Below are positions 2,054 to 57,289 of a stretch of 64,000 nucleotides of DNA, piece by piece (positions within the stretch are counted from its first letter, which is position 1; the number at the start of each line of letters is the position of its first letter). Origin of the DNA: Nesterenkonia pannonica (GTDB lineage: Bacteria > Actinomycetota > Actinomycetes > Actinomycetales > Micrococcaceae); the NCBI RefSeq assembly GCF_019575955.1, contig NZ_CP080575.1, positions 1,116,001-1,180,000 on the forward strand, given 5' to 3'. The notes beneath the pieces were generated by a model. The model saw only the letters and a program-made list of their open reading frames with translations. It did no database searches and was not told the DNA's origin. Made by a program: the position numbers and the translations under genes.

Positions 2054-3179
2054 ATGCGTGATCCCTCGATCGTGCTTGCTTAAGCGGCGGGACCGCTGGG
2101 CACATCAGCCCTATGCTCGCCATTGCGGAAGCACTCGGACGCCTGGCCCCGAGTCCCGCTGCACCATCATCGGTACCCCGGACGGCCTGGAGACTCGACT
2201 GGTGCCCCGAGCCGGGTACCCGCTGCGCACCATCGACAAGGTGCCCATGCCCCGCCGTCCCGGCCGCGACGCGCTGCGGTTCCCCGGGCGATTTCGCAGG
2301 GCCGTGGAGGAGTCAAGCGCATCCTGACCGAGGAGAGCGCCGCAGCAGTCCTCGGTGTGGGCGGATACGTCTGCACCCCCGTCTACGTGGCGGCGCGGCG
2401 GCTCGGCATCCCCGTCGTCATCCACGAGGCGAACGCCCGCCCGGGCTTGGCCAACAGGGTGGGCGCACGCGGGGCGCACTTCGTCGGATCAGCCTTCGAG
2501 GACACGCCCCTGAGGTCGAGCCAGTGGGTCGGCATGCCGATGAGCCGAGAGATCTCGGAGATGGGGCGCATGGACTCCTCTCAGGCGGCGGCTGCTCGCG
2601 CTGAGGCTCGCGAAGAGCTGGGACTCGATCCGGAGCGGACCACCATGGTGGTCACCGGGGGCTCCTCCGGGGCTCTGAATCTCAACAGGGCGATCGCCTC
2701 CCGCTCTGCCGCAGCTGCTGGACACCGGGGCGCAGGTGCTTCACCTCACCGGCAGGGACAAAGCGGTGACGGACGAGGCCGGAAGGCCCCTGAGCGCGGA
2801 CGGATACGTCCAGCGCGAGTATCTCGAAGGCATGCACCGGGCCTACGCAGCGGCCGACCTGATGGTCGCCCGCGCCGGAGCCGCGACGGTGTGCGAGGCT
2901 GCCGCCGTGGGAGTGCCCGCAGTCTTCGTGCCGCTCCCCATCGGCAACGGGGAGCAGGAGCTGAACGCCCGCGGCCTCGTCGACGCAGGGGTGCTCTTCT
3001 GGTGAAGGACGAACACTTCACACAGCCGTGGATCATGCGCAACATTCGGCCGCTGCTCATCTGACCCGCGTCTGCTTCTGACGATGCGGGAGCACGCGGC
3101 CGCCAGAGGCATCACCGACGCGGACGAGCGGATGGCACAGGCTGCGCTCTCAGCTGCCGGAGCCGAGGCCCCGGCATGA
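2054..3179 (+). CDS. murG: UDP-GlcNAc:lipid I transferase MurG
   Basis: MurG makes lipid II from lipid I at the inner face of the membrane. The start ATG at 2054 opens with MRDPSIVLA and should continue into the family motif GGGTAGH. At that point the sequence has GCTTAAGC (2078-2085), which creates a false TAA. With GCCGGC the motif is restored. Later segments [30 protein letters not shown] and [12 protein letters not shown] are typical. The C-terminal nucleotide-sugar site reads [23 protein letters not shown]. Further frame changes are near 2145, 2310, 2705, 3000 and 3065. Its stop overlaps the murC start as ATGA at 3176-3179. Confidence 0.9.
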
Positions 3180-4596
3180 GTTCGCTGAGCCAGCTGGGAC
3201 GTGTTCACTTTCTGGGCATGGCAGGCGTCGGGGTATCCGCCATCGCTCGTCTGATGCTCGCCGAGGGTGTGCCGGTCTCCGGCACCGACGGCAGGACCTC
3301 CCGTGCTGAGGGAGTTCCGCGACGCCGGGGTGCCCGTTCGTGTGGGCTACGCCGAGGACAACATCCGCTCGGTGGAGGAGGAGACCGGCACCACCATCGA
3401 CACCGTTGTTGCGTCCTCGGTGGCCAAAGTAAGCCGCAACGTCGAGTACGACGCCGCAGCGGCTGCAGGCAAACGCATGCTCCACCGCTCAGAGGGCTGG
3501 CCGCGTGCATGTCCGCCAAACGCGGCATCGCCGTCGCGGGCACTCACGGCAAGACGACCACCTCGTCCATGACCGCAGTGATGCTCAGCGCAGCGGGCTG
3601 GAGCCCAGCTTCGCCATCGGAGCGACCGTCTCCGGCTTCGGGACGAACGCGCAGGCAGGGGCCGGTCAGTGGTTCGTCGCCGAGGCCGACGAGTCGGACG
3701 GAACGCTGGTCAACTACTGTCCCGAGATCGCCATCGTCACCAACGTCGAACCCGATCACCTGGACCACTACGCAAGCGCCGAGGAGTTCGAGCAGGTCTT
3801 CGTCACGTTCGTGGGAACATCCTTCCAGGGGCGCCCTGGTGCTCTGCGCGGATGACGACGGTGCCCGCAGCCTCGGACGCAAGGTCGCCGGGGACTGGAG
3901 TCGAAGGGCGGCTCCGTGCTCACCTACGGGTTCGCCGCCGATCGCCGGCCTTCGGCTGAGCGACCACAGCGACGGAGCGGACGGACAGCGATTCACCCTC
4001 AGCTGCCACGATGAGACCGCTCAGGTGGTGCTGGCCGCCCCAGGGAGGCACAACGCGCTCAACGCTGCTGCGGCAGTGGGCGCAGGCCTGTGCGCGGGCA
4101 TGGCGCTGAGCGACGCCGCAGAGGCGGTCAGCTCGTTCGTAAGCAGCTCCCGACGCTTTGAGAAGCGCGGAGAGATCGCCGGGATACGCGTCATCGACGA
4201 CTACGCCCACCATCCGACGGAGCTGGCGGCGGTCCTCTCGGCAGCCCGCAGCGCGGTCGGAGTAAGCGCGGTCCACGCGATCTTCCAGCCGCACCTGTTC
4301 ACCCGTACCGAGGCTTTTGCGAAGGAATTCGGCGAGGAGCTGCGCAGGGCGGACACCGCTGCCGTGCTGGAGATCTACCCGGCCCGCGAAGAGCCCATCG
4401 AGGAGTCACCGCGGAGCTCCTGGGACACCCCGTGCTGCAGCGGCAGGCGGCTGTCGACCAGGCGGTCAGGGCTGCGCAGCCAGGCGACATCATCCTCACG
4501 CTGGGCGCCGGTGACGTCACGGAGCTCGGAGACGACATCGTCGAGGGTCTCAGGCAGGCACGGCCTGCAGAAGGCGGAGCCGTCGATGGTCCCTGA
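3176..4596 (+). CDS. murC: UDP-N-acetylmuramate--L-alanine ligase
   Basis: MurC adds the first L-Ala to UDP-MurNAc. Visible motifs are VHFLGMAGVGVSAIARLML at the start, the ATP loop GTHGKTTTSSM near 3540, AEADESDGT near 3680, and HPTELAAV followed by FQPHLFTRT near 4210-4300. Three in-frame GTAAGC sites (3429, 4139, 4262) each give Val-Ser where Ala-Gly is expected, for example in FxGxxRRFE before the RRFEKRG motif. Single-base losses occur near 3295, 3490, 3600, 3830, 3900 and 4400. The ATG overlaps the murG stop, and the end overlaps the likely ftsQ start, so the three genes look translationally coupled. Confidence 0.9.
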
Positions 4597-5382: not shown

Positions 5383-5500
5383 GCCGCGACCAGGACACGC
5401 TAAGGTTCATGTCCGGGTGCAAAGTGGCGGTTGCCCGTAGCCTGGCAGAGAAGAAAAATGGCAGTCAGTCTGGGCTCCGAGAGATTTAAGGACGTACAAC

Positions 5501-6722
5501 GTGGCAGCACCCAACAACTACCTGGCCGTGATCAAGGTCGTCGGCATCGGCGGCGGTGGAGTCAACGCCGTTAACCGCATGATCGAGGTGGGCCTGCGCG
5601 GCGTGGAGTTCATCGCCATCAATACGGACGCTCAGGCGCTGCTGATGTCGGACGCCGACGTCAAGCTGGACGTGGGGCGCGAGCTGACCCGCGGCCTCGG
5701 CGCAGGAGCCAACCCGGATGTGGGCCGTCAGGCCGCTGAGGATCACGCTGAGGAGATCGAAGAGGTGATCCGCGGTGCGGACATGGTCTTCGTCACTGCT
5801 TAAGCGAAGGCGGCGGCACGGGCACCGGCGGAGCCCCGTCGTGGCTCGCATCGCTCGTTCCTGGGCGCCCTGACCATCGGGTGGTCACCCGACCCTTCAC
5901 CTTCGAGGGCCGTCGCCGCGCCACATCTGCCGAGACCGGCATCGAAGCGCTCCGGGACGAAGTGGACACCCTCATCGTCATTCCCAACGACCGGCTGCTC
6001 TCGATCAGCGACAAGAACGTCTCCGTTCTCGACGCGTTCCGATCAGCTGACCAGGTCCTTCTCTCCGGCGTGCAGGGGATCACCGATCTCATCACCACAC
6101 CCGGTCTGATCAACCTCGACTTCGCCGACGTGAAGTCAGTGATGCAGGGAGCCGGATCAGCGCTCATGGGCATCGGATCGGCCAATGGCGAGGACCGTGC
6201 CGTCAAGGCCGCGGAGCTCGCTATCGCATCCCCTCTGCTGGAGGCCAGCATCGATGGTGCGCACGGTGTGCTCCTCTCCATTCAGGGCGGGTCCGACCTC
6301 GGACTGTTCGAGATCAACGAAGCCGCGCGTCTGGTCCAGGAGGTCGCGCACCCTGAGGCGAACATCATCTTCGGCGCAGTCATCGACGATGCGCTCGGCG
6401 ACGAGGCGCGGGTGACCGTCATCGCGGCAGGCTTCGACCAGCCCGACGTGACGTCAAGCCTGCGGCGCCGCAGCCTGTGCACCAGTCCTCTCAGCGTTCG
6501 TCCCCGCAGTACGGCTCGCCTGTGGCGCCCGTGGCGGGTGCGACAGCCGGCGGCTACGCAGCGTCGGCAGCCTCGCAGGACACAGCGCCTACACCGCGCC
6601 CCGACGCAGCCCAGCAGCGTGGACACAAGTCCTCGGAGGAGGAGCAGCTTCCCGAGGTTCTCGAGTCCGACTACACCGGAAAGAGCGACGACGAACTCGA
6701 CGTTCCCGACTTCCTGAAGTAG
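5501..6722 (+). CDS. ftsZ: Cell division GTPase FtsZ
   Basis: FtsZ is the tubulin-like GTPase that forms the Z ring. It starts at GTG 5501, 8 bases after AAGGA. The N-terminal part has [15 protein letters not shown]. The GTP-binding signature expected as GEGGGTGTG is disrupted at 5798-5805, where GCTTAAGC replaces an Ala-Gly codon pair and adds a TAA. Bases are also missing near 5835 and 5880 and around 6465. The rest is intact: [35 protein letters not shown] and the C-terminal conserved peptide [10 protein letters not shown]. Because ftsZ is essential, these breaks are best read as sequence errors. Confidence 0.93.
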
Positions 6723-6726
6723 AAGA

Positions 6727-7415
6727 GTGTTCTACTGGCGCGGGGAGCACGAGGGCGTTCAGCTCGGCTTCACGTCGGCCGAAGTAAGCAATCTGGCTGC
6801 GCACGTCGGCTCGGCGGACGCTGCCCGTCGAAACCGAGTTGCCCTCGAGAGGGTGACAGGCTCTCTGCGCTTCCTGAATCAGACCCACTCTGCTGACGTG
6901 CACGACGCCCTGGAGCCGACGGACAGTCCGCCCTCGGGTGACGCGTGGGTGTGCGAAGACGGCAGCGTCTCGCTGGCTGTGGCTGTGGCCGACTGCCTGC
7001 CTGTGCTGCTGGTGGGCGGCGGCCCACGAGGCCCCGTCACAGCGGCGGCGCATGCCGGTCGGAGCGGCCTGATGGCAGGTGTCCTGGAGAACACGGTGCG
7101 CGCCATGCGCCAGCGCCGGGCGCAGAGCATACGAGCGTGGATCGGGCCGGGTGCCTGCGGCAGCTGCTATGAGGTGCCCCAGGAGATGGTGAACGATCTT
7201 GCCTCGCACCGACCGGGCCTTGCCTCCCTCACACGGTGGGGGACGCCCGCACTGGACCTGCGCGCGCACGCGCCGCACTCCTTGAGGAGCAGTCAGTCGA
7301 TGTGCACGATGTGGGAGGGTGCACCATCGAAGAGGCTCGACTCTTCTCCCACCGCGCCGCGCAGAGCTGGGGCGCCCCTGAGGGCAGGCTCGCCGGGGTC
7401 GTGTGGAAGCCATGA
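6727..7415 (+). CDS. pgeF: Peptidoglycan editing factor PgeF / YfiH (multicopper polyphenol oxidase-like)
   Basis: The YfiH/PgeF family is a purine nucleoside phosphorylase/polyphenol-oxidase fold linked to correcting muropeptide side chains. It is usually found beside ftsZ in actinobacteria. The metal-site motifs are visible: NQTHSADVH, a DC pair in VADCLPVLLV, AAHAGRSGL and WIGPGACGSCYEVP. It starts at GTG 6727, four bases after ftsZ. At 6784 GTAAGC gives EVSNLAAHVG where the family has a Gly before NL (GNLALHVG), which GCCGGC would supply. A frame change near 7270 otherwise fuses it to the next gene. The stop TGA 7413-7415 overlaps the yggS ATG. Confidence 0.85.
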
Positions 7416-10265: not shown

Positions 10266-10849
10266 ATGTCCGAGATCTCCACAGCGCCCCAGAGGCGCAG
10301 ACCGAGCAGACGGGCCGCGATCCTCCTTGCAGGAGGTATCGCGGCCCTCGCTTTGCCCTTGACCAGGCCTCCAAGCTCTGGGTCGAGCAGACCCTGGCCC
10401 TTGGTGAGCAGATTGATGTGCTGCCTCCTGTTCTCTACTTCAGGCACCACCTCAATCCCGGGGCCGCCTTCTCCATGGGCACCGACTACACATGGATCTT
10501 CACGCTCATCCAGGCCACCGTCCTGGTGCTTGCGCTGTGGTGGTTCCGTCGTCTCGGCGGCTCCTGGCTGTGGGCGCTGGCACTGGGAGGCCTGGCCGGG
10601 AGTGGTAAGCAACCTCACGGACCGGCTCTTCCGACCCATGGCGCCCGGGGACGGGGCGAGCACACATTCGGCCTCGGGGCAGTCGTCGACTTCATCAGGG
10701 TGCCGAACTTTGCGGTGTTCAACGTAGCTGACAGCTTCATCGTCTGCTCGATCATCGGTCTCTGCGCGCTGATGATCTTCGGCTGGGGGATCGACGGAAG
10801 CCGGGAGAGGGCTGAGGCCTCCGACAGGGATGAGACTCCGGCGTCATGA
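10266..10849 (+). CDS. lspA: Lipoprotein signal peptidase II
   Basis: LspA is the membrane aspartic protease that cleaves the signal peptide of prolipoproteins. Four hydrophobic segments are recoverable. Both catalytic aspartates are present, in NLTDRLF near 10611 and FNVADSF near 10728. The expected motif is G(G/A)xAGNLxDR. The sequence has GTAAGC at 10605-10610, giving Val-Ser where Ala-Gly is conserved. The N-terminal half reads ALDQASKLWVEQTLAL after restoring one T near 10355. Further frame changes are near 10600 and 10645. The TGA at 10847 overlaps the ATG of the following pseudouridine synthase. Confidence 0.88.
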
Positions 10850-16265: not shown

Positions 16266-19214
16266 ATGGTCGCTGCTGACTACCCCTTTGTAGGTCGCCG
16301 CGACGAACTGCTCAGGATTCGCGCAGCAGGCGAACGGGTTCGGCGAGGACAGTCGCAGTTCGTGCTCCTGGAGGGGCTCGTAAGCGTGGGCAAGACAGAG
16401 CTGATGCGCCGGGCTCGGGACAGCTTCCCCGAATGGCCGGAGTACGGCGTCGTGCTCAGCCGTCACCAGAGGGCCACTCACAGTGCGGTCCTGCACGGCC
16501 TGTTGGAGGGCAGCGCAGTTGCCTGCAACGAAGCCAGCGTCGAGGAGATCGCTGCGAAGCTTCTTCGCGGCGCGCAGGAGTTCGAGGCTCCGATGATCGT
16601 CTCTGTCGGAGAGCTCCATCATGCGGATGATTTCTCCGCTGAGCTGCTGTGGCAGGTTCTGAGCACGTTGGTGGACAGCCCCGTGCTCGTCCTGATGTCC
16701 TCCGCGCCCAGTGCACGCCCTGAGATCCAGCGCCTTGCTCAGCTGGCACAGGTCAGTCCCAGGGCACGCACATCGCCCTGGCCCCCTGACGCTGGACGAT
16801 GTGAAGGACTATCTGGGCATCTGCACCGGCTTTGCCGTCAGTCGCGAGGCGGCTGCCAGGGTCCATCGGGCCACAGACGGCTATCCGCTCCTCGTCCGAT
16901 GCGTGGGGACGTGGCTGCAGTCGACTCCTATGGGCCGCCGCGGGATCGATCAGGCGATTCGGCACGCGCTGGAGCACGAGGACCTTCTTCACATCCGCAC
17001 TCAGCTCGCCATCAGCCTGGAGGGTGTCGGGGAGCCGACCGGCCGTGTGCTCGACATCCTCGCTGCGGCGGAGACACCGATCTCCGAACGGAATCTCGAG
17101 AGCATCCTCGGTGAACGGATCAGCCCGCGGGAGCTCGTTCAGACCGGGATGGTGCGTTGGGATGACGCTTCCTGCGGCTACGCGCTGAGGATGCGTGCCG
17201 CAGGCCGCGGACTCATCGGCCGCCTCAGCTGCGAGGAGCGCCGTGATCTTCATCTGGCTCTTGCCGCGGTGCTCAGCGGCCGCGAGAGCATGCATCACCA
17301 GGTGGCCGCCGCGCAGCTCGACCCGGAGGCGGTGGAAGCAGAGAGTCTCCACGAGCAGCTGGTCGAAGCTGGCCGCGAGGCGGCTGAGGCAGGTGACTGC
17401 GGCGAGGCCTTCAAGCTCGTGCGCCTCAGTGCCAGATTGCGTCCCGACGTCGAGGGCCTGACACGGCTGGGGCTGCTCGCGGTGTCGGCTGACCGCCGGA
17501 AGGACCTGGTCGAGTTCGAGCCAGCTGTGCGCGCCCTTCCGGCCTCGGCGGGCCGTTCGGCTCTTCTGGCGATGCTGAGCATCCAGCGGGCCGACCCGCA
17601 GGGTGCCCTGAAGGAGCTGGATAGGCGTACGGACCTCTCAGGGAAGAGTCAGGACTGCTTCTCTACGCTCAGACACTGTCGGATGTGTGCGGACACCTGA
17701 TTCTTCTCGGGGTGCGATCCATCCTCAGGGCACGCTGAGCCGCACTCTCGAAGCCGTGGAGCGGCACCAGGAGAGACTGCGCAGCGAACGCGCGAAGCAG
17801 CTGTCGTCGGGGCAGGACATCGAACCCGCATGGGATTTGGGGTACGCGGCCGGGCTGCACGGGATGCTGACAGTCTGGCGAACAGTGGAAGGCATCAGTC
17901 CCAAATCGGTCACGGCTGGGCTGCAGACCATCGCCGCTCATGTCGAGCTCCTGAAGAAGTTCCCGGGCACTGAGCGCCCACGGGCGATCCTGCGCAGCCT
18001 GCGCGGAACCAGGATGGCCCAGTTCTCGGAGCACCGCGAGGCGCTCGGCGAGCTGACGCCTCTGACGAATCTTGGGGAACGGACGCCTACTCGCTCCAGG
18101 CGCGCGCTCAGACGGCGCTGCTGCTCTTCAACGCGGGCAAATGGCGCGAAGCCCACGAGACGGCCGAGGCCGCCGCAGGAGAGGCGCTGCTCGACGACGA
18201 GAACGGCGCGTCGCTGCTGGCATATGCGCTCACCTGCCTGGTCCCCGCGGCCCGTGGCCAGGTGTACAAAGTTCAGCCTGTGATCCGACAGCTCGAGGAA
18301 GCTCCGCTGTCAGGTCCTCTTGTGGAGGGCGTCTTGTGCACCGTGAAAGCATGGGCGGCCATCTCAGAGGGCGCGCACAGCGAGGCTGCGCAGCACCTGC
18401 TCGCAGCGCGCAGCGCATCGAGCGGATGGTGGCTGGTCGGGCTCGAGCCGCTTCTGCTCCTGGCCCGAGAGCTGCACTGCTCCGAGTGGTCTGAGCTTCT
18501 CCCTGGGCTGATGCGGTCCGCCTCCCAAGACGTCCCGAGCCTGGTGGGCTCCCAGCTCGCAGTGCTGGAGTACCTCAAAGGGTTCGAGTCCTGGGGCCAG
18601 GGCGAGCCCGGGCGTGCCATGGAGAGCTTCGTCAGAACCCTGAAGTTCTTCGACAGGCAGCCTCCGCTGCAGGCCTCACAGGCAGCCGTCGAAGGCGGCG
18701 GGTTCCGACTGCTGCGCGCGATGCTGGGCCTCGATATGGCTGCTCTGTTCGTTGAGCACCGCGAGGCTCTCCCCGCACATCGTTCGCTCGCACTCGAGAT
18801 GGTCGTCTGGTCGGCAAGCGTCTTCCAGGCATGCGGCAGCCAGACCCTGTTCGACGCTGCCTCGGAGCTCATGGAACGGGTGCGGACCAGGCCGAACGAC
18901 GCCCCGCTCCGCGTACGAGCCCGATCCAGGCTCCGCCTGCCCAGGAAACCGCGCCCTCAGCTGCTCCGATGCCCCAGATCAGCGGGGACGGGCCGCCGCT
19001 GACCGACGTGCTGGAGCACCTCTCGTCGCGAGAGCAGGAGATCGCGTTCGCAGTCGCTGAGGGGAACACGAACCGGGAGGTCGCCGAAGACTTGGTCATC
19101 TCGGTGCGGACTGTTGAATACCACGTGGGGAACATTCTGCAGAAGCTGGACCTGGAGTCCAGGAAGGAGCTCCGCCAGCTGCTCCGAGCCGCCTCGGTGG
19201 AGCAGCGGGCGTAG
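16266..19214 (+). CDS. Large ATP-binding LuxR-family regulator (LAL type), first copy
   Basis: About 980 residues after joining frames. The N-terminus has DYPFVGRRDELLRI followed by a P-loop read as EGLVSVGKTELM. The Val-Ser comes from GTAAGC at 16380, and Ala-Gly is the usual sequence there. A Walker B-like stretch (MIVSVGELHHADD) follows. The long middle is helical, TPR/MalT-like. The C-terminus is a LuxR helix-turn-helix: LSSREQEIAFAVAEGNTNRE, then DLVISVRTVEYHVGNILQKL. Frame changes are near 16760, 17650-17700, 18075 and 18920. LAL proteins are usually activators whose signal is unknown. Position next to the flagellar genes suggests, but does not prove, a link to motility. Confidence 0.85.
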
Positions 19215-34150: not shown

Positions 34151-34483
34151 CCGAAGCGATCCTCTCCGCCGCGCCCACCGCCGCGACCGGATATGTGCAG
34201 CAGAATCCTCAGCTTGAGCGTGCCGCATCGCTGAGCCCCACCGCGGAGGCTCAGCCAGCAGGCTCGTCGTTCGCGTCAATCCTGGGCGGCGCGGTCGACG
34301 GCGTCTCCGGCATGGAGGCTTAGCGCTCGCCAGCTGGCTGTGGACGGCGTGACCGGAAACCTCGACGACCTCCACCAGGCCACCCTGGCCCAGCAGCGGG
34401 CATCCTTGGGCTTCGAGACCATCTCCGCTCTGCGCAACCGCGGAGTCGAGGCGTTCAACGAGATCATGCGGATGCAGGCCTGA
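34147..34483 (+). CDS. fliE: Hook-basal body junction protein FliE
   Basis: FliE joins the MS ring to the rod. The start GTG 34147 overlaps the flgC stop. The C-terminal part is diagnostic: DLHQATLAQQRASLGFETIS followed by ALRNRGVEAFNEIMRMQ. At 34318-34324 the sequence GCTTAGC gives a stop codon and a one-base shift, where GCCGGC would read GMEAGARQLAVDGV. With that repaired the protein has about 112 residues, normal for the family. Confidence 0.9.
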
Positions 34484-39672: not shown

Positions 39673-40473
39673 CGTTCTCCTCAGCAATGGGTCGGATTGG
39701 TCAGATCGAATCTGCCATCGGCGCATACAGCCCCCAAGCTCCTCCTCCGGGTGCGGCCCAGAACGTGCCGCGTGCCGGGGAGCTCCGGCGCTCGCGGCGC
39801 CGGAGACCCGCGCCGTCAGCGCGGAGCCCGGCACCGCGCTGCGAGGGCCCCAGCCGCTGAGCGGCCCGGCCTCGGACTTCGAAGCGCTGATGCGCGTGCT
39901 CAGCTACGCCGAGGAGCTCGCCGCGGGTCCGCGCTCCGCAGCGCCGCGGGATGCGTCCTCTTCGGTCCCCGGCGCATCCCCAGCATCCTCTGCCTCGCCG
40001 GTTACCCCCGCAGGCAGTGCCTCATCCGGCGGGGGCAGCGGACGAGACATCGTGGCAGCCGCTCAGAAGCATCACGGAGTTCCGTACCTGTGGGGAGGAA
40101 CGGACCCGAGCAGAGGCTTGACTGCTCAGGGCTGGTGAAGAATGTGATGGCGGAGTTCGGCATCAGCGTCCCGCGGGTCGCTGCCGCGCAGGCACGCGCG
40201 GGCAAGGAAGTGCCCTCCCTCGATCAGGCGAAGCCGGGAGACCTCATCGTCACTCGTGGCGGAGGCCACATCGGCATCTATGCTTAAGCAGCGGTGAGTG
40301 GACCCATGCCCCCGTCCGGGCCGCAGCGTAGTCACCGAGCCGGTCAGCGGCACCATCATGACCATCCGACGGATGGTGGACTCCCGCAGGAGACGTCAGC
40401 ATCGCCTGCGGCCCAGACGGCCTCAGCCGACCGCGGCGCTTTCGAGGCTCGCTTGGCAGGAGCACGGACATGA
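39669..40473 (+). CDS. NlpC/P60 (C40) peptidoglycan hydrolase of the flagellar cluster
   Basis: A cell-wall endopeptidase, about 270 residues, that probably opens the wall for the rod, as FlgJ does elsewhere. An Ala/Pro/Ser-rich linker leads to the catalytic domain. That domain has GRDIVAAAQKHHGVPYLWGG, the nucleophile in DCSGLVKNVMAEFG (one G restored near 40120) and the catalytic His in GGGHIGIY. GCTTAAGC at 40282 makes a false TAA immediately after IYA; repair gives AGSGEWTHAPRPGRSV. Frame changes are near 39780, 40120, 40310 and 40375. No N-terminal signal peptide is evident, which suits export through the flagellar channel. Confidence 0.85.
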
Positions 40474-42036
40474 CCGCTCTCATCGCCCTGCTCGCCGCCC
40501 GATCGCTGACCGCTCCCACGCCCTCCGCAGCGTCAGCCCACAGGACGACGGATGCTGATGCCTCCTTCTCCCACCTGCTGGGTGCCGCGGCTCAGGACGG
40601 TGCAGCCGACGCTGAGGAGGCTCCCATCGCCCAGCGCCACGACCCATCCTCAGAGTCTGAAGCCGAGGCTTAGGCGCCCAGCAGACAGCGGACGATGTGC
40701 TTGCGAGCTCAGAGAGGGCGCTCTTCGTCTCCTCCGACCCGGCGGAGGTGAGAGCCCTCCCTCGACCTTGGAGAAGGCGCCGTCCGCGGACCGCATAGAC
40801 GCCCCGCGGGGAGCCGCCCACAGACCTCTCGCCCGCAGACACTTCGCGCATATCCGACATAGCCGGAGAGGCTCCTCGGCAGGATGCCTACTCTGATGCG
40901 GATGGGGCGCAGGTCCCGGCGCAGCACCCCGAGGGCGATGAGCGGCTTCAGGTGCCGGACTCAGCAGAGAAGCGGGCCGAGGCTCCTCCCAGTGCGGAGC
41001 TCCTGCATCCTGCGCACCGTGATGAGACGCCGGAGAGCCCAGAGGAGACTCACACCACGTCGCGCACGCCGGCTCTCCCCGACACTGCGGCTTCCTCAGA
41101 CGGGCCGCCGACGCGCGATCCCTACGTCGACACCCAGGGCCTCGCTCTGCCTGACCCACCGGCAGGAGACGCCCAGGGCGGTGAAGGCGAGCAGTCAGGC
41201 GCTGACACTGAAGCTCAGGCTACGGATGAAGGCGCGATCGATGCATCCGAGGTGATGGCTGCCACGCCCCATGAGAGCTCTGAGACGCCGGATGTGACGG
41301 CTGAGACGCTGCCCAGCACGGTCCCTGCTCAGGAGCATGACGCCGTTCCGCAGCCCAGCCCCAGGGGAGCGGATGCCTCGGCCTCCTCCCGCCGCAGAGC
41401 GGCGCCGCACCAGGGCAGAGCACTGCAGTTCAGGCCACAGCTATTCAGACCACGGTCGTGCACTCAGCCGCCTACCCGTCGGCGAGCGGGGCGGCGCCGA
41501 CCGTGGCCCAGCCGCTCAATGCCCAGCTCAGCACTCCCGTCACCCAGCCGTCACCCGCAATCGTCGCCGCAGGCGGCGGTGAGCAGGTCCTGACGATCAC
41601 GGTGGCCCCTGAGAGCCTCGGTCCGGTCACCGTGAGGGCGCATATGACGCCCGAGGGGATGAGGATCGAGCTGTTCTCCTCCCAGGAGCAGGGCCGAGAA
41701 GCGCTGCGCGGCATCGTGGCCGATCTGCGCCGAGATCTGGCAGGCCTAGGAGTGAGCACAGGCACCTCTCAGGTGAGCGTCTCGGACCAGGAGGCCCCGG
41801 CCTCTCAGCCCTCGACGCACCTGGGGCAGCACTCCCGCGCGGCCGATCAGCAGCTGCTGGACGCCCAGCAGCAGAGCCGTCAGCAGTTCGGCGAGCACGC
41901 CCGCGACGGCGCCTCCGCCGAGGCGGACACGCCCCAGGCCGGACCCGCTGCGGCGGCCGACGCGGAGCAGGGCGAGCCTCCACTGCCCGACATCCGAACC
42001 CACTACATCCCCGGCAGCCTGGATCTGCTGGCCTGA
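40470..42036 (+). CDS. fliK: Hook-length control protein FliK
   Basis: FliK measures the hook and switches export specificity. The C-terminal FliK domain is clear: VLTITVAPESLGPVTVRAHM followed by TPEGMRIELFSSQEQGREAL. The rest is low-complexity and rich in Ala, Pro, Ser, Glu and Gln, as is usual. GCTTAGGC at 40668-40675 introduces TAG where GCCGGC would read EAGAQQTADDVL. Further frame changes lie near 40745, 40900 and 41400-41460. ATG 40470 overlaps the preceding stop. About 520 residues. Confidence 0.88.
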
Positions 42037-42608: not shown

Positions 42609-43750
42609 ATGCTCCGCTCCATGAACTCCGGCATCTCCGGACTCCGCTCCCACCAGGCCATGCTCGACGTGACCGGCAACAACATCTCCAACGTCAACAC
42701 CACCGGCTACAAGGCTCAGTCCACCCAGTTCCAGGACACCCTCAGCCAGATCACCCAGGGCGCGGCAGGAGGCGGCGCCCAGGTGGGCGGACAGAACCCC
42801 GCGCAGATCGGCCTGGGGGTCCAGGTGGCTTAAGCACCAATACGAACTTCACCCAAGGGGCGGCGCAGCGGACCGATGTCGCCACCGACATGATGATCTC
42901 CGGCGACGGCTTCTTCGTGCTCAACAAGGGCGGCGAACAGATCCTCACCCGCTCCGGCTCCTTCAGCTTCGACAACCAGGGCCGCCTCACCAGCCCCGAC
43001 GGAGGGATCGTGCAGGGGCGAATGGCAGAGAACGGCCAGCTGCCTGCCGGAGGTGCACTGCAGGACATCGTCCTGCCGCCGAACATGGCGGTGGGCGGAA
43101 CGGCGACCACCGTCGCCCAGGTCCAGGGCAACCTCCCTCCGATGCCGCTGTGGGCGAGACCCGCACCCTGGACCGTGAGGTCTTCACCGACGACGGCACC
43201 AGCCAGAACCTCTCGCTGACCTTCACCCGCACCGCAGGCGGCTGGGACGTGGCGGGATCGCTCGGCGGAGCGAACGCTGCAGGCACCCTCGACGGCGGAC
43301 TCACTGTGGGCGGCGTGGCCGTGGATCTCACTGCCGTGACCACCTTCGCCGGCGTCGACAGCGCCTCGATCTCCTCGCAGAACGGCTCCGCCGCCGGAGT
43401 GCTGCAGTCCTACACGATGGGTCCCGACGGCACGCTCACGGGACGTTTCTCCAACGGCGCCTCCATCGACATCGCCCAGATCGTCCTGGGCCAGGTGGAC
43501 AACCCGAGGGGCTGCAGAAGGTCGGAAACTCCGGCTACGCCCTGACCGCGAACTCCGGCGGAGTCAACTTCGCAGCCCCGGCACCGGCGGGGTCGGCAGC
43601 CTGGTGGGAGGTGCGCTGGAGATGTCCAATGTGGACCTCTCGCAGGAGTTCACCAACCTGATCGTCGCCCAGCGCGGCTTCCAGGCGAACGCGCGCATCA
43701 TCACCACCTCGGACGAGGTGCTGCAGGAGCTGGCGAACATCAAACGATGA
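42609..43750 (+). CDS. flgE: Flagellar hook protein FlgE
   Basis: The hook subunit. The N-terminus is [20 protein letters not shown], then [20 protein letters not shown]. The C-terminus is [20 protein letters not shown] followed by [26 protein letters not shown] at 42828-42835 gives a false TAA after GVQVA. The expected continuation [16 protein letters not shown] follows in another frame. Other frame changes are near 43140, 43510 and 43585. About 380 residues. It is the only hook/distal-rod family gene beyond flgB and flgC in the window. Confidence 0.92.
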
Positions 43751-44842: not shown

Positions 44843-45731
44843 TGGCGGGGAGGGAAGCGCGATCCGCAGCGGAAGCCCCAAGCGGACGCGCACACGTCGC
44901 AGGGCTGAGGAGGTGCGGGACAACCCGGACCGCTGGATGGCATCGTACATGGATGTCGTCACGGTGCTGATGTGCCTGTTCATCGTCCTCTATGCCATGT
45001 CGACCGTGGACGAGGAGCGGTACGAAGCCCTGCGCCTGTCCTTGGCCACAGGATTCGGACGCGAGGAGTCCGACCTGGTGGAGGACTCCGGGCTTCTCAT
45101 CTCGGAGGAGCTCGCTTACGATCACGACACGACCATCTTCGACGACATCGAGGACTCTGACGAGTTCGAGGACGACCTCATGCTTGCGCAGCAGGAGTAC
45201 GACGATCTCATGGAGCTCAAGAGGCAGCTGCGCAGCCGACTGCTCGACGCCTACCACGAGGAGAGCGTGGAGTTCACCCTGGATGAGCAGGGCCTGCACG
45301 TGCATCTCATCGGCGCCGAGACCTTCTTCGATCCCTACGAGTCGAAGCTCAGCGCAGACGGAGCCGAGATCATGGGCATCATCGCCCCGGTCATCGCCCC
45401 CACCGAGAGGTTCTTCGAGGTGGGCGGCCATGCCGATCAGCGCCAGCCGCTGCACACCTACGCGACCAACTGGGAGCTGTCCTCCGCCCGGGCGACCTCG
45501 GCCCTGCGGGAGCTGGTGGAGGAGGGAGAGGTCAACCCCACCCGCATCGTCTCTGTGGGCTACGGACATGAGCACCCCATCAGCGACGACCTGTGGCGCA
45601 ACCGCCGCGTCGACGTCAGCATCCTCTCCGACCAGCCGGACCGTGTGCGCGAGCTGCTGCCGCAGATCCGCGACGCCGCCCAGGCCGGGGAGGAGCTGGA
45701 CCTGGGGTCTCTGCTCGAGGCGTCCAACTGA
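44842..45731 (+). CDS. motB: Flagellar motor stator protein MotB
   Basis: MotB anchors the stator to peptidoglycan. The plug/membrane region has RWMASYMDVVTVLMCLFIVL with the proton-binding Asp, the conserved D of SYMD. The C-terminal OmpA-like domain has FFEVGGHADQRQPLHTYATN then WELSSARATSALRELV. I start it at ATG 44842, overlapping motA. This needs one base restored near 44850 to reach the main frame, and GTG 44814 is the in-frame alternative. GCTTAC at 45114 gives Ala-Tyr where Ala-Gly may be true. About 296 residues. Confidence 0.92.
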
Positions 45732-46702: not shown

Positions 46703-47443
46703 ATGACCAAGTTCGACCTCCTGAACGACACCGCCTCGGCCGTCGCCCAGGCTCTGCCCACACGCTCCGGCGTGAGCGCGGAGCGGCGGCTTACTCCCGC
46801 AGCGCCGCCGAGCTCACCGGTGCAGGGTCGGTGGCCGTCACCACCCTGGTGGGGGCCGCGTCGGCCGATCTCGCAATCCACCTGGACCCGGCAGCCATCG
46901 GCGGCTCCGAGCAGCTGGACCCTCAGCTCGTCTCCCTCGACGACGTCCTGCGTCCGGCATTCGAAGCAGCCGCCGCCGTGCTGGGCACCGGAGTCCTCTC
47001 AGCCGCTGACCCTCCGCTGCACGCACTCTGCTGGAGGACGAGTCCGCTGAGCTCTTCGTGCTTCAGGACGGCAGCCGGGCGGTCGGCTGGTACGCGGTGC
47101 GGGTCAGAGACAGCGAGCGGGCTAGGCGGCGGCGAGCGCAGCCTTCCTCTGTTGGGTGGCTGGGGCCGATGTCGGCAGCGTCGGCGATGTGACCTCGCGG
47201 CTGTCCCGTCTGCACAACGTGCACATGGGGCTGACGGTGGAGATCGGCCGGACCCGGGTCTCGGTGCGCGACGTGCTGGACCTCGAGCCGGGGGCGGTCA
47301 TCGAACTGGACCGCAACGCCGGTGCCCCGGCAGACGTGCGGCTCAACGGACGCCTCATCGCACAGGGCGAGGTCGTCGTGATGGACCAGGACTACGGGGT
47401 GCGGATCACACGGATCCTCGATGCCGCGGAGGGCTCAGCCTGA
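46703..47443 (+). CDS. fliN: Flagellar motor switch protein FliN with N-terminal extension
   Basis: FliN forms the base of the C ring. The C-terminal SpoA domain is clear: VHMGLTVEIGRTRVSVRDVL followed by DLEPGAVIELDRNAGAPADV and VVVMDQDYGVRITRIL. An N-terminal extension of about 150 residues (SVAVTTLVGAASADLAIHLD and more) makes it longer than classical FliN and reminiscent of FliY-type proteins. Frame changes are near 46790, 47035 and 47125. GCTTAC at 46789 and GCTAGGC near 47120 could be altered GCCGGC sites. Confidence 0.85.
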
Positions 47444-49709: not shown

Positions 49710-50803
49710 TGAGCGAGTAGGCAGGGGAGCGCACAGAGAAGGCCACTCCGAAGCGCCAGAAGGAGAACCGGGAGAAGGGACGCCTGTCGCGCTCCCAGGA
49801 CCTGACGGCGTGGGTGGGCATCGGTGCGGCAGCAGCGACCATGCCGCTGGTGCTGATGGCCGCGTGGGAAGCCTACCAGGTTCAGCTGGGAACGGTCGTG
49901 CAGATCACGCGCAGCCCCGAGCCGGAGATCGCCCTGACCCTTCTGGGCGAGGCGCTGCGGTCGGTGCTGCTGGTCCTGTGGCCCCTGATGCTGGCCACTC
50001 TCGTGGGGGTCTTCGCCGCCGCGGCCCTGCAGGGCGGAGTCCGCTTCAAGAAGTTCGCCCTGAAGGGGAGCACCTTCAGCCGGTCAATGGGCTCAAGCGC
50101 GTCTTCGGCATGCAGGCTGTGTGGCAGGGCGTGAAGGCTCTGCTGAAGACAGCAGCCGTGGGACTGATGATCTACGCGGTGGTGCAGACGCTCGTCCCCG
50201 AGCTGCTGACCGCCTACTCCATGTCTCTGGACTCTCTGCTGGCATCCGCCGCCGCGGGCGTCACCATGCTGCTGGGAGCCTCCATCCTGGTTGCGTGGGA
50301 CTGGCGGTCATCGACATCGTCGTGGTGCAGAAGCGCAACCGCAAGCACACCATGATGACCCGCCAGGAGGTCAAGGATGAGACCAAGAAGACGGACGGGG
50401 ACCCTTTGATCAAGCAGCAGAGGCGCTCCCGCCAGATGGACCTCAGCCGCAACCGCATGATTGCTGCCGTCGCGGACGCGGACGTGGTGCTGGCAAACCC
50501 GACCCATGTGACGGTCGCGCTGCAGTACAGGGAGGGGGAGGCCGCCCCAAGGTCGTGGCCAAGGGCGCGGACCTCCTCGCGGCCCGCATCCGAGAGGAGG
50601 CGGTCGAGCGCGGGGTTCCCATCGTCAGGGATGTGCCCCTGGCCCGTGCGCTGCACGCCGAATGCCTACTCGGGCAGGAGGTGCCGGTGGAGCACTTCAC
50701 CCAGGTGGCCCGCGTGCTGGCGTTCGTCATGGCTCTGAAGCGCCGCGGCGCCCACGCAGGAGTGCACACCATCCCCGATCCCGCGCAAGGAGGAACCCTG
50801 TGA
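49709..50803 (+). CDS. flhB: Flagellar export switch protein FlhB
   Basis: FlhB controls substrate switching by self-cleavage. The cleavage motif NPTH is present in LANPTHVTVALQYREGE near 50495. The N-terminus ERTEKATPKRQKENREKGRL followed by SRSQDLTAW is typical. Codon 4 reads TAG within GTAGGC (49717-49722). GCCGGC there gives MSEPAGERTEK. Frame changes are near 50085, 50305 and 50545. The C-terminal part has GVPIVRDVPLARALHAEC. The stop overlaps the flhA GTG. Confidence 0.92.
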
Positions 50804-52851
50804 GGCTCAGCGCCTTCCCCAAGCTTGCTGTCCCGCTGGGCGTGGTGTTCATCGCCATGCTCCTCGTCGTCCCCATACCGGCGCCCGTCCTGGACGTGCT
50901 GATCGTGATCAACATCATCGGCGCCATCCTGGTGCTGATGACCACCATGTTCGCCAAGAAGCCGCTTGACTTCTCCGTCTTTCCCTCGCTGCTGCTGGTG
51001 ATGACGCTGCTGCGCCTGGGCATCAACGTCGCCTCCACGCGCCTGGTGCTCGGCAACGGGTACGCAGGGAGGTCATCGGAGCCTTCGGGCAGATCACCGT
51101 GGGCGGCAGTCTCATCGTCGGATTCGTCATCTTCCTGATCCTCATCGTCATCCAGTTCGTCGTGGTGACCAAGGGTGCGGAGCGTGTGGCGGAGGTCGGC
51201 GCGCGATTCACCCTCGATGCCATGCCGGGCAAGCAGATGGCCATCGATGCCGACCTCAACGCCGGGCTGATCACCGACAAGGAAGCGCGCCGACGCCGTG
51301 AGGAGATCGCAGCCGAGGCGGACTTCTACGGAGCGATGGACGGCTCATCGAAGTTCGTCAAGGGCGACGCGATCGCCGGGATCGTCATCACCCTCATCAA
51401 CCTGGTCGGCGGAATCGCCATCGGCATGATCGTCAACCAGATGTCCGCCGCGGACGCCCTGAACACCTATGCGCTGCTGACAGTGGGCGACGGGCTCGCC
51501 ACGCAGATCCCCGCACTGCTGATGGCTGTCTCAACGGGAATGATCGTCACCCGTGCCAACTCCGAGAGCGACCTGGGGTCCACCGCCCACCGGCAGCTGA
51601 CCCAGTCACAGGCTGCGCTGCTTGTGGCGGGGGTGGCAGCGATGGTGATGGGGCTGATCGCAGGGATGCTTACCGCGCCGTTCATGGCCGTGGGGGCGGT
51701 CCTCATCGCAGCCGCTTGGTGGATGCGCCGCCAGGACCGGAAGGAGGCGTCGGCCGCGGCACGCGCCGCCGACGATGAGGCAGCCCTGGTGCCCGAGGAG
51801 ACCACGGCGGATCTCATCGAGCAGATGAAGGTCCACAGCCTCGAGATCCAACTGGCTCCCGATGCGGTGGACATCGTCGGCGGAGGCGGAGACGACCTCC
51901 TGGCCCGCGTGAAGGCGCTGCGCAGGCGCCTCGCGCTCGAGATGGGAATCCTGGTGCCGCCGGTCCGCACCCGCGATTCGGTGGACCTCCCGCCGTCGGG
52001 CTACGCCGTCCGGCTCGCCGGGGTGGAGGCCGGGCGGGAACCATCCCCGCGGCAAGGTGCTCGCCCTGGGCGACAACCTGGAGAGCCTGCCCGGAGAGTC
52101 GCTGATGGAGCCTGTCTTCGGGCTGCAGGGCAAATGGGTCCCCGCGGAGCTGCGCCACAACGCAGAGCGCACCGGGGCGATGACCATCGACCGCACCTCC
52201 GTGGTCGTCACACACCTGTCCACCCTGATCCAGCGTCACGCCTCGCGCCTGCTCACCCGAGAGGACGTGCGTGTGCTCACCGATGCCCTGAAGCAGACCA
52301 ACCCTGCCGCAGTGGAGGAGCTCACCCCGCAGCCCCTTTCCCTGGCCGAGATCCAGAGGGTCCTGCAGGGGCTGCTCGAGGAGCAGGTGAGCATCAACGA
52401 TCTGCAGCGCATCTATGAGGCTCTGGCACTGCAGGCGAAGTCCTCCGCCGAGCCGGAGAAGCTCATCGAAGCGGCGCGCTCCGCCCTGGGCCCGGCGATC
52501 GGGGACAGGTATTCGGAGGGCGGCAGACTGCGCGTGATCATGCTGGATCCCACGCTTGAGCAGTCGATGCTCGAGGGCCTGCGGCCCGCGGAGGGCGGAA
52601 CCCAGATCGTTCTCGATCCGTCCCGGATCGAGGCGGTGCACACCTCAGTCAGGGACACGGTGGCGCAGGTCGAGGCTCGCGGGCAGTCCGCGGTGCTGGT
52701 CTGCGCGCCTGCCCTGCGTCCCTCGGTGCGCAGACTGGTCTCACCGCAGGTAGGCGGGCTGCCCGTGCTGTCATATCAGGAGGCTTCGGCAGTGGGGGCC
52801 GACATCGAAACGGTGGGAGTGATTCGTGGAACCGAGCAGATACCGTCTTAG
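50800..52851 (+). CDS. flhA: Flagellar export gate protein FlhA
   Basis: FlhA is the large export-gate and docking protein, about 680 residues. The FHIPEP motif region LLRLGINVASTRLVLGNG is present near 51010. The proton-channel region DAMPGKQMAIDADLNAGLIT follows, and the cytoplasmic domain has LREDVRVLT-like text (LTREDVRVLTDALKQTNPAA). GCTTAC at 51668 gives GMLTAPF where the family usually has GMP; GCCGGC would give GMPAAPF. Frame changes are near 51065 and 52040. GTG 50800 overlaps the flhB stop. Confidence 0.92.
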
Positions 52852-53730
52852 GGGCCCCTCGCTCGCCCAGCTGGGCGCGGAGGCGATCCGCAAATACGGG
52901 CCCGATGCGCGGATCGTCTCATCAGCACGAATCAGTGCAGGCGGCTGGGGGCGTCTGGTGGGCCGCGTCTACTACGAGGCTGAGGTCGAGGTTGCCCAGG
53001 CGCCCGAAGCGGCGAACGAGCTGCAGGGCCCGCCGCAGAGCGTGAAGCCGTCGGCGCAGGGCAGCGCCGACACTGCTGCGGACGTCGTGCTCATCCGGCC
53101 CGAGGCCGTCGACGCCGCCCGGGACCCAGGTCTGCAGACGCCGTCCCAGCGGCTCAGAGCGCGCGGCAGACTGGAGTCGGCGGAGGCCTCGGACGAGCAT
53201 TTCAGCCGCATGATGGATGATCTGTGGAGAGCCTTGAAGGAGCCCGCCGGGACCCCGGTCCCGACGCTGGCGGTCCCCGCGGGCGCCGAAGGTGCTCCGC
53301 GACGCGGGTGCGCTCGTGGTGGTCGCGGGGATGCACGGCGACGCGGCGGCGGCGCTCCAGACTCTCGATGCCGAGGGCAGCGCCCGTGTCTGGGATCCGT
53401 CACGGCTCCGCGGCCAGCCCCTGCACGCTCAGCGGCGTGAGCTGCGCCAGGTTCGGGCTCAGGCCGTCACAGCCGACCTGCCGGTGATGGCGCTTACCGA
53501 GCTTGAGTTTCCTCGCAGGGAGTGCCCAGCCGTGCCGATGCTGCCGTGATCGAGGAGGCCGATCAGCTGTGGGCGGCCGTGGACCTTCGGCACAAGCCGG
53601 ATGATGTCAGGGTCTGGCTGGCCGTGCTGGCTGAGCACCGTACAGTCGACGGGGTCGTGCTGCTGGCCGCGGAGCAGACCCTCACCCCGAGACGGGCCGT
53701 CAACTGGGCCTGCCGGTGCATCAGCCGTGA
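52826..53730 (+). CDS. FlhF-like protein with degenerate GTPase motif
   Basis: The N-terminus RYRLRGPSLAQLGAEAIRKY followed by GPDARIVSSARISAGG resembles the FlhF B domain, and the gene follows flhA as flhF does. About 300 residues after joining frames near 53285, 53530 and 53708. The region where the SRP-type GTPase P-loop should be reads ALVVVAGMHGDAAAALQTLD, which lacks the Gly-Lys-Thr. Later text (DLRHKPDDVRVWLAVLAEHR, ending LGLPVHQP) keeps the expected overall plan. It may be a nucleotide-independent relative of FlhF, or errors may hide the loop. GTG 52826 overlaps flhA by 26 bases. Confidence 0.55.
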
Positions 53731-54138: not shown

Positions 54139-54797
54139 GACGACTCCGCCGCAGACGCTGCGAGACGGCGAAGCTCTGCGATGGCTTCCTCCGGGTCCTC
54201 AGCGGAGTACACGGCAGAGCTTACCACAAAGTGTCTGCGCTACCTCCGCCGCCCGTTCGATGGTCTCGGAGCTGACCCCGCCGTCGATCTGGATCGCCAC
54301 GCGGCTGCCCAGGTCATCAGCGGCCTGCCGTGCGCGGCGGATCTTCGGGAGCATGATGTCCAGGAACTTCTGGCCCCGAACCCCGGTTCGACGGTCATCA
54401 GGAGCAGCATGTCCAGCTCGGAGAGCATGTCGAGGTAGGGCTCCACCGCCGTGGCCGGGCGCAGAGCCATCGCTGACTTGGAGCCCTGTGAGCGCAGCTG
54501 CCGGGCCAGACGGATCGGAGCCTTCGCCGCCTCGGCATGGAAGGTGACCGACTCTGCGCCGAGCTCGGCATACTGCGGAGCCCACACATCGGCGTCCTCG
54601 ATCATCAGGTGGATGTCGAGCGGCAGATCTGTGACCTTCCGAATGGCCTGAACGACGGGCAGGCCCAGCGTCAGGTTCGGCACAAAGTGGTTGTCCATGA
54701 CATCCACATGCACCGCGTCGGCGCCGCGGATGCGCCCCAGCTCGGACTCCAGGTTGGCGAAGTCCGCGGACAGGATCGAAGGATGAATAGCCGTCAT
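54135..54797 (-). CDS. rpe: Ribulose-phosphate 3-epimerase
   Basis: Rpe interconverts ribulose-5-P and xylulose-5-P in the pentose phosphate pathway. The TIM-barrel motifs are visible: [55 protein letters not shown] and [20 protein letters not shown]. The conserved end should read AGADTFVAGSAVYSA. In the sequence GTAGC and GTAAGC (+ strand GCTAC 54239 and GCTTAC 54219) disrupt both Ala-Gly pairs. Frame changes also lie near 54385 and 54230. The ATG is at 54797, and the stop overlaps the csrA stop on the other strand. Confidence 0.9.
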
Positions 54798-54944
54798 GCT
54801 CCGATCCTATGCGGATCTGAGGGTCCGGAGCGCGTTTTCCACAGGAGCGGCCCAAGGCGCTCCCCACCTCACTCATCCTCGCTAGGCTCCTCCAGGCGAG
54901 CGGCCGGGAAGCGCTGCTCACGGCCTCTGCTGAACGGAATTCTC

Positions 54945-55647: not shown

Positions 55648-55668
55648 ATGCTCACCCTGCGGATCAGC

Positions 55669-57289
55669 CTACTTACCACATTCGTAGTTGCTGCTGGCCG
55701 CCTGCTCGAGAATCATCGTCTCGCCGCGGTCCTGGGCGTCCATGAGGTATTCGGCGGTCAGCTCCGAGCCGTCCGGCTGGGTCGGCAGGCCCGTCTCCTC
55801 CGGCTCGGAGGCGGGCTCGTCGTCGGCCACGGCCGGGTCATCGTGCTCGGGCGTAGGTCCGGGCGGTTCGCCCTCCGGGTCCGCCGCGTCCTCGGGAGAT
55901 TCCGGCTCGGTCCGATCCTCGTCCTCCTGCGCAGGCTCCTCCGCGTCGCTTTCGTCCGCATCGGCCTGCTCCTGGGCGATCAGCTCATCGACGCGGGAGT
56001 GGATGGCGTCGAAGTCAGGGTAGGTGGAGAAGAGGTCGCCGGCGCTGCCGAAGTCAGGAGCGCCCAGGGTCAGACGCTGCGGCGTGTGCTCCTGGGCGTC
56101 GGCGGCGAGGTCCACGAAGGATCCGAGCTGCGACTGGGGAACGTTGGTCTGGATCATGCTGTCGCTTACCCGCATGATGTCGGTGAACCGGGTCAGCAGT
56201 GTTTGGGGCGTGAACTGGCCCACCATGGCCTGCTGGATGCACTGCTGGCGCTGGATGCGGTTGTAGTCGGAGCTGAACTCGCGCGATCTGGCATAGGAGA
56301 GGGAGTCCTGGCCGTCGAGGGTGAGCGTCCCCGGCTCGAACCACACGTCGCCCCAGCTGCCGTCGGGGCGCTCGCCCCTGTAGGGGACGAATCCGCCGGA
56401 TTCGATCGTGATGCCGCCCATGGCATCGATCAGCTCCTCGAAGCCGTCCATATCGACCATCACGTAGCCGTGCACGCCGAGGCCCAGGGTGCCGGATACG
56501 GCGTCCATCATGGCTTGGGCGCCCGGGTCATCGGCCTCCGGATAGAGCTCCGGGTGGTCGTTGTGCACCTCGGGGTAGAGGAAGTTGATGATGCATTCGT
56601 TGCCGCAGTTGTATCCCTCGGGGTACACCGCATTCAGCGGGGAGTCCTCCGAGAACTGTGCGTTCTGGAAGTTGCGAGGGATGGAGAAGAGGATCGACTC
56701 GCCTGAGTCCTCATTGACGGAGACCACATGGATGGAGTCCGGGCGTATCGGCTGATCGCCCCGCTCCTCATCTCCGTCCGAGCCCATCAGCAGAAAGTTG
56801 TAGCGTCCGTCCTCTGCTGGCATCGCCGGGCCGCTGTCGAAGATGCCTGCCAGGGCCAGTCGCCCCTGGTGCACCATGGAGGCCCTGTAGGCCAGGCCTC
56901 CGGAGGTGAGGGCCGCCAGCAGCAGCAGCACAATGCCGACGATCCACCGAGGCCTGCTCTCCATACCTGCCAGACGGATCAGCCGCAGCGTGTCCAGCCA
57001 GAGCACCAACCACCCGGCAGCAAGTCCGGCCAGCAGAATGCTGACCGCCCAGAGCACGAACGGCTGGGTCAGAGCGCTCAGGAGGGGGCCGCGCAGGAGC
57101 AGGAGCAGCAGCACGCCCAGCAGCGCAGTGAACCAGCAGCCGATGGTGACCGCCAGTGCGGCTCGGCCCAGTGTGCGCGAGCCTGCAGTGACCTGCGCTC
57201 CGCCCGGCAGAAAGAGCGTGAGGCCGGTGAGAAGCACCGCCCGGCGCGTGCGCTCGGTCGACGAGGCGGCTCGGGATTCCGTACGACAT
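55669..57289 (-). CDS. LytR-CpsA-Psr (LCP) family wall-polymer ligase
   Basis: LCP proteins attach wall polymers to peptidoglycan outside the membrane. There are four hydrophobic segments near the N-terminus, then the LCP domain: FLLMGSDGDEERG with RPDSIHVVSVN, FSIPRNFQNA (the S-I-P-R motif), YVMVDMDGFEELIDAMGGIT and SDYNRIQRQQCIQQAM. An acidic C-terminal tail of about 100 residues ends the protein. The frame is open from 57237. I extend to ATG 57289 across one frame change near 57260, because MSYGIPSRLVDR fits a cytoplasmic start. GCTTAC at 56164 (+ strand) gives Val-Ser for probable Ala-Gly. The divergent membrane part marks it as an actinobacterial type. Confidence 0.88.

Follow-up and report, generated by a model that had tools for sequence, protein, structure and literature searches.

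GCCGGC sites in the Nesterenkonia pannonica assembly are very probably misread, with a NaeI-type restriction-modification pair as the likely cause

A 64,000-nucleotide stretch of the forward strand of the Nesterenkonia pannonica genome (C1:1116001-1180000, hereafter the window) contains a small set of odd strings, among them GTAAGC, its reverse complement GCTTAC and the two-base-longer GCTTAAGC, at positions where GCCGGC might be expected. From comparison of sequences, we consider it very probable that these strings are consensus errors made at methylated GCCGGC sites, with a NaeI-type restriction-modification (R-M) pair encoded in the same genome as the cause, and that they are not mutations. 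According to an earlier note on this DNA, GCCGGC would be methylated and misread; this view is supported by the concentration of replacements at GCCGGC, the broken reading frames, the nanopore-like collapse of homopolymers and the presence of the gene pair. The artefact is of a known kind, and it points to a known, ordinary kind of R-M system.

The genome is a single contig, 2,699,453 bases long, and its completeness is given as 62.49. All 27 of the strings listed in the earlier note are present in the window, 26 of them at the coordinate given and one, GCTAAGC, at 20019 rather than 20020; an additional GTAAGC, at 27538, was absent from that list. The depletion of GCCGGC is also real, with 14 copies in the window (28 when both strands are counted, against 114 expected from the window's shorter words), and GCCGGC is the most depleted 6-mer there. 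The note had suggested counting these words across the full assembly, and this was done with CGGCCG, which is GCCGGC written backwards, as the control for GCCGGC and with separate control words for GTAAGC plus GCTTAC and for GCTTAAGC, the ratios to control being compared with those of 23 genomes of the same genus. GCCGGC occurs 686 times against 2,715 for CGGCCG, a ratio of 0.25 compared with 1.10-1.46 (median 1.28) in the congeners, whose ratios would predict 2,985 to 3,966 sites; 77-83% are thus missing. GTAAGC and GCTTAC together, in counts that take in a background of genuine GTAAGC, reach 1,238 against 1,037 for the control (1.19, compared with 0.11-0.60 in the congeners), which puts them about 600 to 1,100 in excess. 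GCTTAAGC has 165 copies and its control word 62; uncorrected for base composition, this is the highest raw count among 396 genomes sampled across the phylum (with N. pannonica counted), the next being 118.

The nearest congener compared (G013), which is 80% identical across 6.7 of 8 kb tested and has the same order, allowed individual sites to be followed. Thirteen stretches of the N. pannonica genome together with the window (320 kb) were aligned with 20 stretches of G013 (400 kb); 48 of the 53 BLAST pieces were kept, amounting to 259 kb at 78% DNA identity, and a site was counted only where 14 or more of the 24 columns flanking it were identical. GCCGGC is the 6-mer most reduced relative to G013 (0.16). 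Opposite 479 GCCGGC sites of the congener stand 15 copies of GCCGGC (3%), 20 of GCTTAC, nine of GTAAGC, nine of GCCTAC (a replacement form missing from the earlier list), seven of GCTTAAGC, three of GTTAGC and two of GTAGGC, with the remainder facing mostly one or more ordinary changes. Identity at 12 control palindromes is 8.6-31%, compared with the 3% at GCCGGC. With slightly wider end margins, TA-containing replacements account for 66 of 477 GCCGGC sites (13.8%) against 0-4.9% at the control palindromes, and strings of altered length for 11.9% against 2.9-8.8%. Intact and TA-containing sites together make up 17%, close to the identity of 10-19% at six other palindromes composed only of G and C, so that among conserved positions the deficit is more or less explained. 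Looked up in the reverse direction, GCTTAC faces GCCGGC at 20 of 67 positions and itself at one, GTAAGC faces GCCGGC at nine of 26 and GCTTAAGC at seven of 16.

The consequences for genes, and the character of the errors around them, point in the same direction. When 55 replacements (18 chosen forms, on plus-strand alignment pieces) were placed against mechanically called open reading frames (ORFs) of G013, they comprised 39 missense changes, 10 frame shifts, three stops and three outside ORFs. Pfam was consulted for some of the gene families that had been named in the window, giving GT28 (MurG-type), Mur ligase, FtsZ C-terminal, Cu-oxidase_4 (PgeF-type) and FHIPEP (FlhA) domains. The FtsZ domains open in the ORF at 5881-6717, downstream of the odd string at 5798, as expected from a frame break there. 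Collapse of homopolymers and deletion-rich indels are the mark of a nanopore consensus made without short-read polishing, and both are present: in 460 kb of this genome against 400 kb of G013, runs of five G or C number 345 against 852 (0.35 of the G013 rate), runs of six number 1 against 96 and runs of six or seven 1 against 100, while the alignment, over 262,766 columns, contains 2,160 frame-breaking indels (8.2 per kb) and 339 in-frame ones (1.3 per kb), alignment noise included, with deletions outnumbering insertions. The platform was most likely nanopore. Several window genes, FtsZ included, are split over frames, which is consistent with this frequency of frame-breaking indels.

The earlier note had further predicted a methyltransferase gene like that of the NaeI or NgoMIV systems, and a C5 methyltransferase was indeed found 0.94 Mb from the window, tail-to-tail with a homologue of the NaeI endonuclease. 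A search of the genome with the C5 methylase family gave two loci, of which the first, at 174.7-175.6 kb, matches PF00145 at 1.6e-53 (C1:174687). Two frame pieces of the NaeI homologue match PF09126 (2e-27 and 7.3e-21), and pieces of it match the solved NaeI (PDB 1ev7/1iaw) at 1.7e-19 and 3.8e-12; the four NaeI pieces span profile positions 2-267 of 288. The aligned ends of the two genes lie about 0.13 kb apart (positions 2434 and 2562 of locus L001). Measured against their counterparts in Microbacterium, the pieces cover residues 3-318 of a 326-residue methyltransferase and 14-288 of a 321-residue NaeI. The NaeI family has no match elsewhere in the genome beyond this pair and, among 30 genomes surveyed in the genus (N. 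pannonica counted), it is found only here and in G001. The latter was considered as a control combining NaeI with normal GCCGGC and was rejected, its NaeI being frame-broken and short and abutting only residues 1-43 of a methyltransferase (locus L097, G001:C7, about 29.6-30.1 kb); the pair in G001 looks decayed.

NaeI recognizes GCCGGC. Evidence that the methyltransferase acts on this site is indirect, and comes from the concentration of errors at GCCGGC and from the relatives of the enzyme: a genome scan found 29 loci, 14 of which adjoin NaeI or NgoMIV. NaeI, detected by tblastn, lies beside six (L068, L069, L070, L073, L081 and L089) and NgoMIV beside eight (L072, L074, L076, L077, L079, L080, L085 and L088). 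In seven others (L071, L075, L082, L084, L086, L090 and L092) one ORF each was tested and matched no type II endonuclease family, that of L086 carrying SNF2/ResIII helicase domains; L087, L093, L094, L095 and L096 lay outside the neighbour survey. The available text of PMC12871193 reports that M.NgoAIV methylates GCCGGC, and that of the review PMC4081073 gives GCCGGC as the NgoMIV site and prints the NaeI site as GCC|CCG, which we take to be a misprint of GCCGGC. RIMS-seq placed 5-methylcytosine at the third base of GCCGGC in Aeromonas hydrophila NEB724, according to the available part of PMC8565308. The NgoMIV endonuclease itself had no match in this genome, which is a weak negative, as the control genomes were also without a match. 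The system thus resembles the NaeI type IIE R-M system in that its pieces match most of the NaeI profile and the solved enzyme, and in having the C5 methyltransferase adjacent and tail-to-tail, as in the Glutamicibacter, Microbacterium and Brevibacterium loci; it differs in that neither gene is whole as assembled, and its activity and specificity are predicted. It shares with the NgoMIV/NgoAIV system, which acts on GCCGGC, the methyltransferase family that neighbours NgoMIV in the eight relatives, but lacks a match to the NgoMIV endonuclease.

These observations can be brought together in a simple scheme. The C5 methyltransferase of the NaeI-type pair would methylate GCCGGC on both strands, and the sequencing of native DNA, most probably by nanopore, would then miscall the modified cytosines; both the methylation and the modified cytosine are deduced rather than seen. 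In the direction in which a strand is read, CC or CCG would be called as TA or TAA, yielding GTAGGC and GTAAGC, and reads of the other strand would yield the reverse complements GCCTAC and GCTTAC. Where the reads of one strand dominated, the consensus would adopt that six-base form, and where both strands contributed, the left half of one and the right half of the other would be joined (GCTTA and TAAGC, sharing TA) to give GCTTAAGC, and likewise GCTTAGGC. These two longer strings fit the merging rule and are found 30 times against two and nine times against none, respectively, in the 460 kb and the 400 kb of G013. Both this rule and the assignment of the forms to strands are deduced.

The two mirror-image forms are unequally represented, with a genome-wide ratio of GTAAGC to GCTTAC of 506:732 (p 1.4e-10, the smallest value in the 23 congeners being 0.03). 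In 860 kb sampled as 43 bins of 20 kb the ratio is 119:241 and the two are unevenly spread (permutation p 2e-4), and a runs test on their order in 320 kb gives p 0.007. In the window the last GTAAGC is at 27538 and the first GCTTAC at 26095. GC skew was rejected as the cause of the two orientations, there being no correlation (Spearman 0.08, p 0.59). Each block of one form or the other presumably reflects the strand whose reads dominated, and the clustering at roughly 1:2 might allow the strand make-up of a consensus to be read from an assembly alone.

Several findings weigh against this interpretation. Neither gene of the pair is an intact ORF in the assembly, the methyltransferase lying in three frame pieces and NaeI in four; with 8.2 frame-breaking indels per kb, however, broken R-M ORFs are uninformative about the living cell, and we attribute the breaks to the general indel rate, claiming no more than NaeI-type homologues and a NaeI-like effect. 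A second C5 methyltransferase is encoded at C1:1761148-1761705 (4.1e-28), beside an SSB gene. GCCTAAGC and GCCTAGGC, which the merging rule also predicts, are not enriched (five against four and one against one in the 460 and 400 kb), and unequal mirror forms occur in Nocardia camponoti as well (GTAAGC:GCTTAC 579:469), so that such an inequality is by itself weak evidence; two of the supporting lines are weakened accordingly. Plain counting in 460 kb gives a summed excess of the named forms of about 280, whereas 705 copies of GCCGGC are missing by the density seen in G013, a figure that falls to about 440 on scaling with the genome's own CGGCCG and the congener median; the named forms cover only part of the deficit, and the rest may be spread over rarer forms.

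The sites that remain are a further difficulty. In 860 kb there are 237 intact copies of GCCGGC, and their retention is strongly tied to the neighbouring bases: relative to G013 it is 0 for GGCCGGCC, 0.02 for A_C and up to 0.44 for C_A. In a table that counts each self-complementary context twice, GGCCGGCC has no entry here against 92 in G013, corresponding to 46 sites. A longer recognition motif was considered and set aside, as every flank pair but G_C retains some sites and every pair lies below the G013 rate; the dependence is graded, and the context of the base-caller therefore fits better. A longer motif or partial methylation may still be the source of some of the intact sites.

The most obvious alternative to misreading is that GCCGGC was truly lost, having been avoided by mutation under a restriction system, and that the odd strings are ordinary variants. 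Low ratios of GCCGGC to control in some carriers lend it a measure of support: among the genomes bearing a related methyltransferase the value is 0.20 in Nocardia camponoti and 0.30 in a Streptomyces (1.38 in Pseudarthrobacter), and among those bearing NaeI it is 0.41 and 0.55 in two Saccharopolyspora. These low values may be ordinary for the groups concerned. Set against them are Glutamicibacter (1.70), Brevibacterium (1.42) and Microbacterium (1.15); of the five actinobacterial genomes with NaeI, three thus keep their sites, and a NaeI system need not erase them. NaeI-bearing Verrucomicrobia stand at 1.29, and NgoMIV-bearing Nevskia and Castellaniella at 1.14 and 1.10. There is no excess of GTAAGC in any of the eight genomes with NaeI or NgoMIV, where its ratio to control is 0.13-0.35 and the orientations are nearly equal. 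Avoidance would moreover produce single, mostly silent and frame-preserving substitutions, whereas here two or three adjacent bases turn together into TA forms, or the site gains two bases, with frame shifts and stops among the results. On these grounds we reject real loss, to which we assign a negligible probability.

Misreading might, on the other hand, be due to another enzyme or another chemistry. The second C5 methyltransferase shares 31% identity with the first across 140 residues and could in principle have made the mark; it is the first, however, that adjoins NaeI and has relatives adjoining NaeI or NgoMIV, whereas seven ORFs tested by Pfam near the second gave only SSB/OB-fold and methylase matches, and the NaeI family, matched nowhere else in the genome, is absent there too. 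Its responsibility is very improbable. A different chemistry at GCCGGC, whether N4-methylcytosine, some hypermodified cytosine or an altered backbone, is a very unlikely proposition, prompted by our judgement that the loss of about 80% of sites, with changes of two to three bases, seems a strong effect for plain 5-methylcytosine. The NaeI-linked enzyme is nonetheless a C5 methylase (PF00145), and a search limited to PF01555 found no N6/N4 methylase in this genome, with matches in 11 of 14 control genomes. It is conceivable, at rather long odds, that the mark is a bulkier derivative of 5-methylcytosine, placed by the NaeI-linked methyltransferase or built on its product, which would explain the failure of about 80% of sites, the change of whole triplets and the strong dependence on flanking bases. 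Misreading of GCCGGC modified by the NaeI-linked enzyme remains the account that we favor.

Errors of this general kind have been described. In the available text of PMC10687267, nanopore errors in Listeria arise from modification at GCAGC and GCTGG and are removed by amplification, and in that of PMC11389150, a multicentre study, forward and reverse reads disagree as to two alternative bases. Here, too, errors are tied to a short motif. Those studies, as far as their available text extends, worked with reads and with references from short-read or hybrid data, and describe mismatches and base ambiguities, whereas the present case is built from an assembly and its gene content, and involves a different motif, GCCGGC, and longer merged strings as well. 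Within the portions of the literature available to the search, no report of such nanopore modification errors at GCCGGC was found; the available text of PMC12871193 and PMC8565308, which deal with this motif, contains none.

An assembly can therefore betray the specificity of an R-M system without its reads, through a motif missing by comparison with congeners, a few misread forms and matching genes, and the k-mer comparison is applicable to other genomes sequenced by long reads only. For the present genome, some 2,300-3,300 sites, in addition to the general indels, may carry wrong letters, giving false Val-Ser pairs, stops and frame shifts, by which gene calling, estimates of completeness and work on the avoidance of motifs might be misled.

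The individual strings of the window are collected in the table. Of the 27 strings listed in the earlier note, 10 lie opposite an exact GCCGGC in G013, seven opposite a one-letter neighbour of it and eight opposite something else, with those at 6784 and 40668 outside the alignment; with DNA that is 78% identical, a site is not refuted by the lack of a match. Two of the eight, GTAGGC at 9738 and GCTAC at 54239, which the table does not include, are without support in G013, and both strings are often genuine, GCTAC being the same in G013 at 54 of 120 aligned positions and GTAGGC at 22 of 49.

Table. Strings in the window read as putative GCCGGC misreads (positions from the first base of the window)
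String and reading	Position	Strand	Basis or context
GCTTAAGC, two-base-longer GCCGGC misread	2078..2085		G013 GCCGGC
GTAAGC, GCCGGC misread	3429..3434	+	G013 GCCGGC; within Mur ligase ORF 3176-4648
GTAAGC, GCCGGC misread	4139..4144	+	G013 GCCGGC
GTAAGC, probable GCCGGC misread	4262..4267	+	G013 GGCGGC
GCTTAAGC, probable misread, upstream of FtsZ frame resumption	5798..5805		G013 six bases GCCGGG; FtsZ domains start in ORF 5881-6717
GTAAGC, likely misread	6784..6789	+	form only, unaligned to G013
GTAAGC, GCCGGC misread	10605..10610	+	G013 GCCGGC
GTAAGC, probable misread	16380..16385	+	G013 TCCGGC
GCTAAGC, possible misread, seven-base form	20019..20025		form 8-fold enriched; G013 no match
GTAAGC, possible misread	20808..20813	+	form only; G013 GCATGC, poorly matching stretch
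GCTTAAGC, GCCGGC misread	25599..25606		G013 GCCGGC
GCTTAC, probable misread	26095..26100	-	G013 GCCGAC
GTAAGC, possible misread, absent from earlier list	27538..27543	+	form only; G013 CCCCGC
GCTTAGC, possible misread	34318..34324		form 8-fold enriched; G013 TCCAGC
GCTTAC, possible misread	34682..34687	-	form only; G013 GCCCCG
GCTTAC, probable misread	37911..37916	-	G013 GCCGGA
GCTTAAGC, probable misread	40282..40289		G013 six bases GCTGGC
GCTTAGGC, likely misread	40668..40675		form only, unaligned
GCTTAAGC, GCCGGC misread	42828..42835		G013 GCCGGC
GCTTAC, probable misread	45114..45119	-	G013 GCCGGG
GCTTAC, possible misread	46789..46794	-	form only; G013 GAGGGT
GTAGGC, GCCGGC misread	49717..49722	+	G013 GCCGGC
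GCTTAC, GCCGGC misread in FHIPEP (FlhA) ORF	51668..51673	-	G013 GCCGGC
GCTTAC, possible misread	53492..53497	-	form only; gapped in G013
GCTTAC, GCCGGC misread	54219..54224	-	G013 GCCGGC
GCTTAC, GCCGGC misread	56164..56169	-	G013 GCCGGC

Some observations were made in passing on loci beyond the NaeI-type pair. The locus of the second C5 methyltransferase (L002) possibly lies on a mobile element. The scarcity of GCCGGC in Nocardia camponoti, which carries a related methyltransferase (L075), is possibly an instance of true site avoidance. Among the 29 methyltransferase relatives, two are adjoined by HNH ORFs (L078 and L083, from Acidobacteria and Lentisphaerae) and one by a Vsr-type ORF (L091, from Streptomyces), and these three are perhaps further GCCGGC systems.

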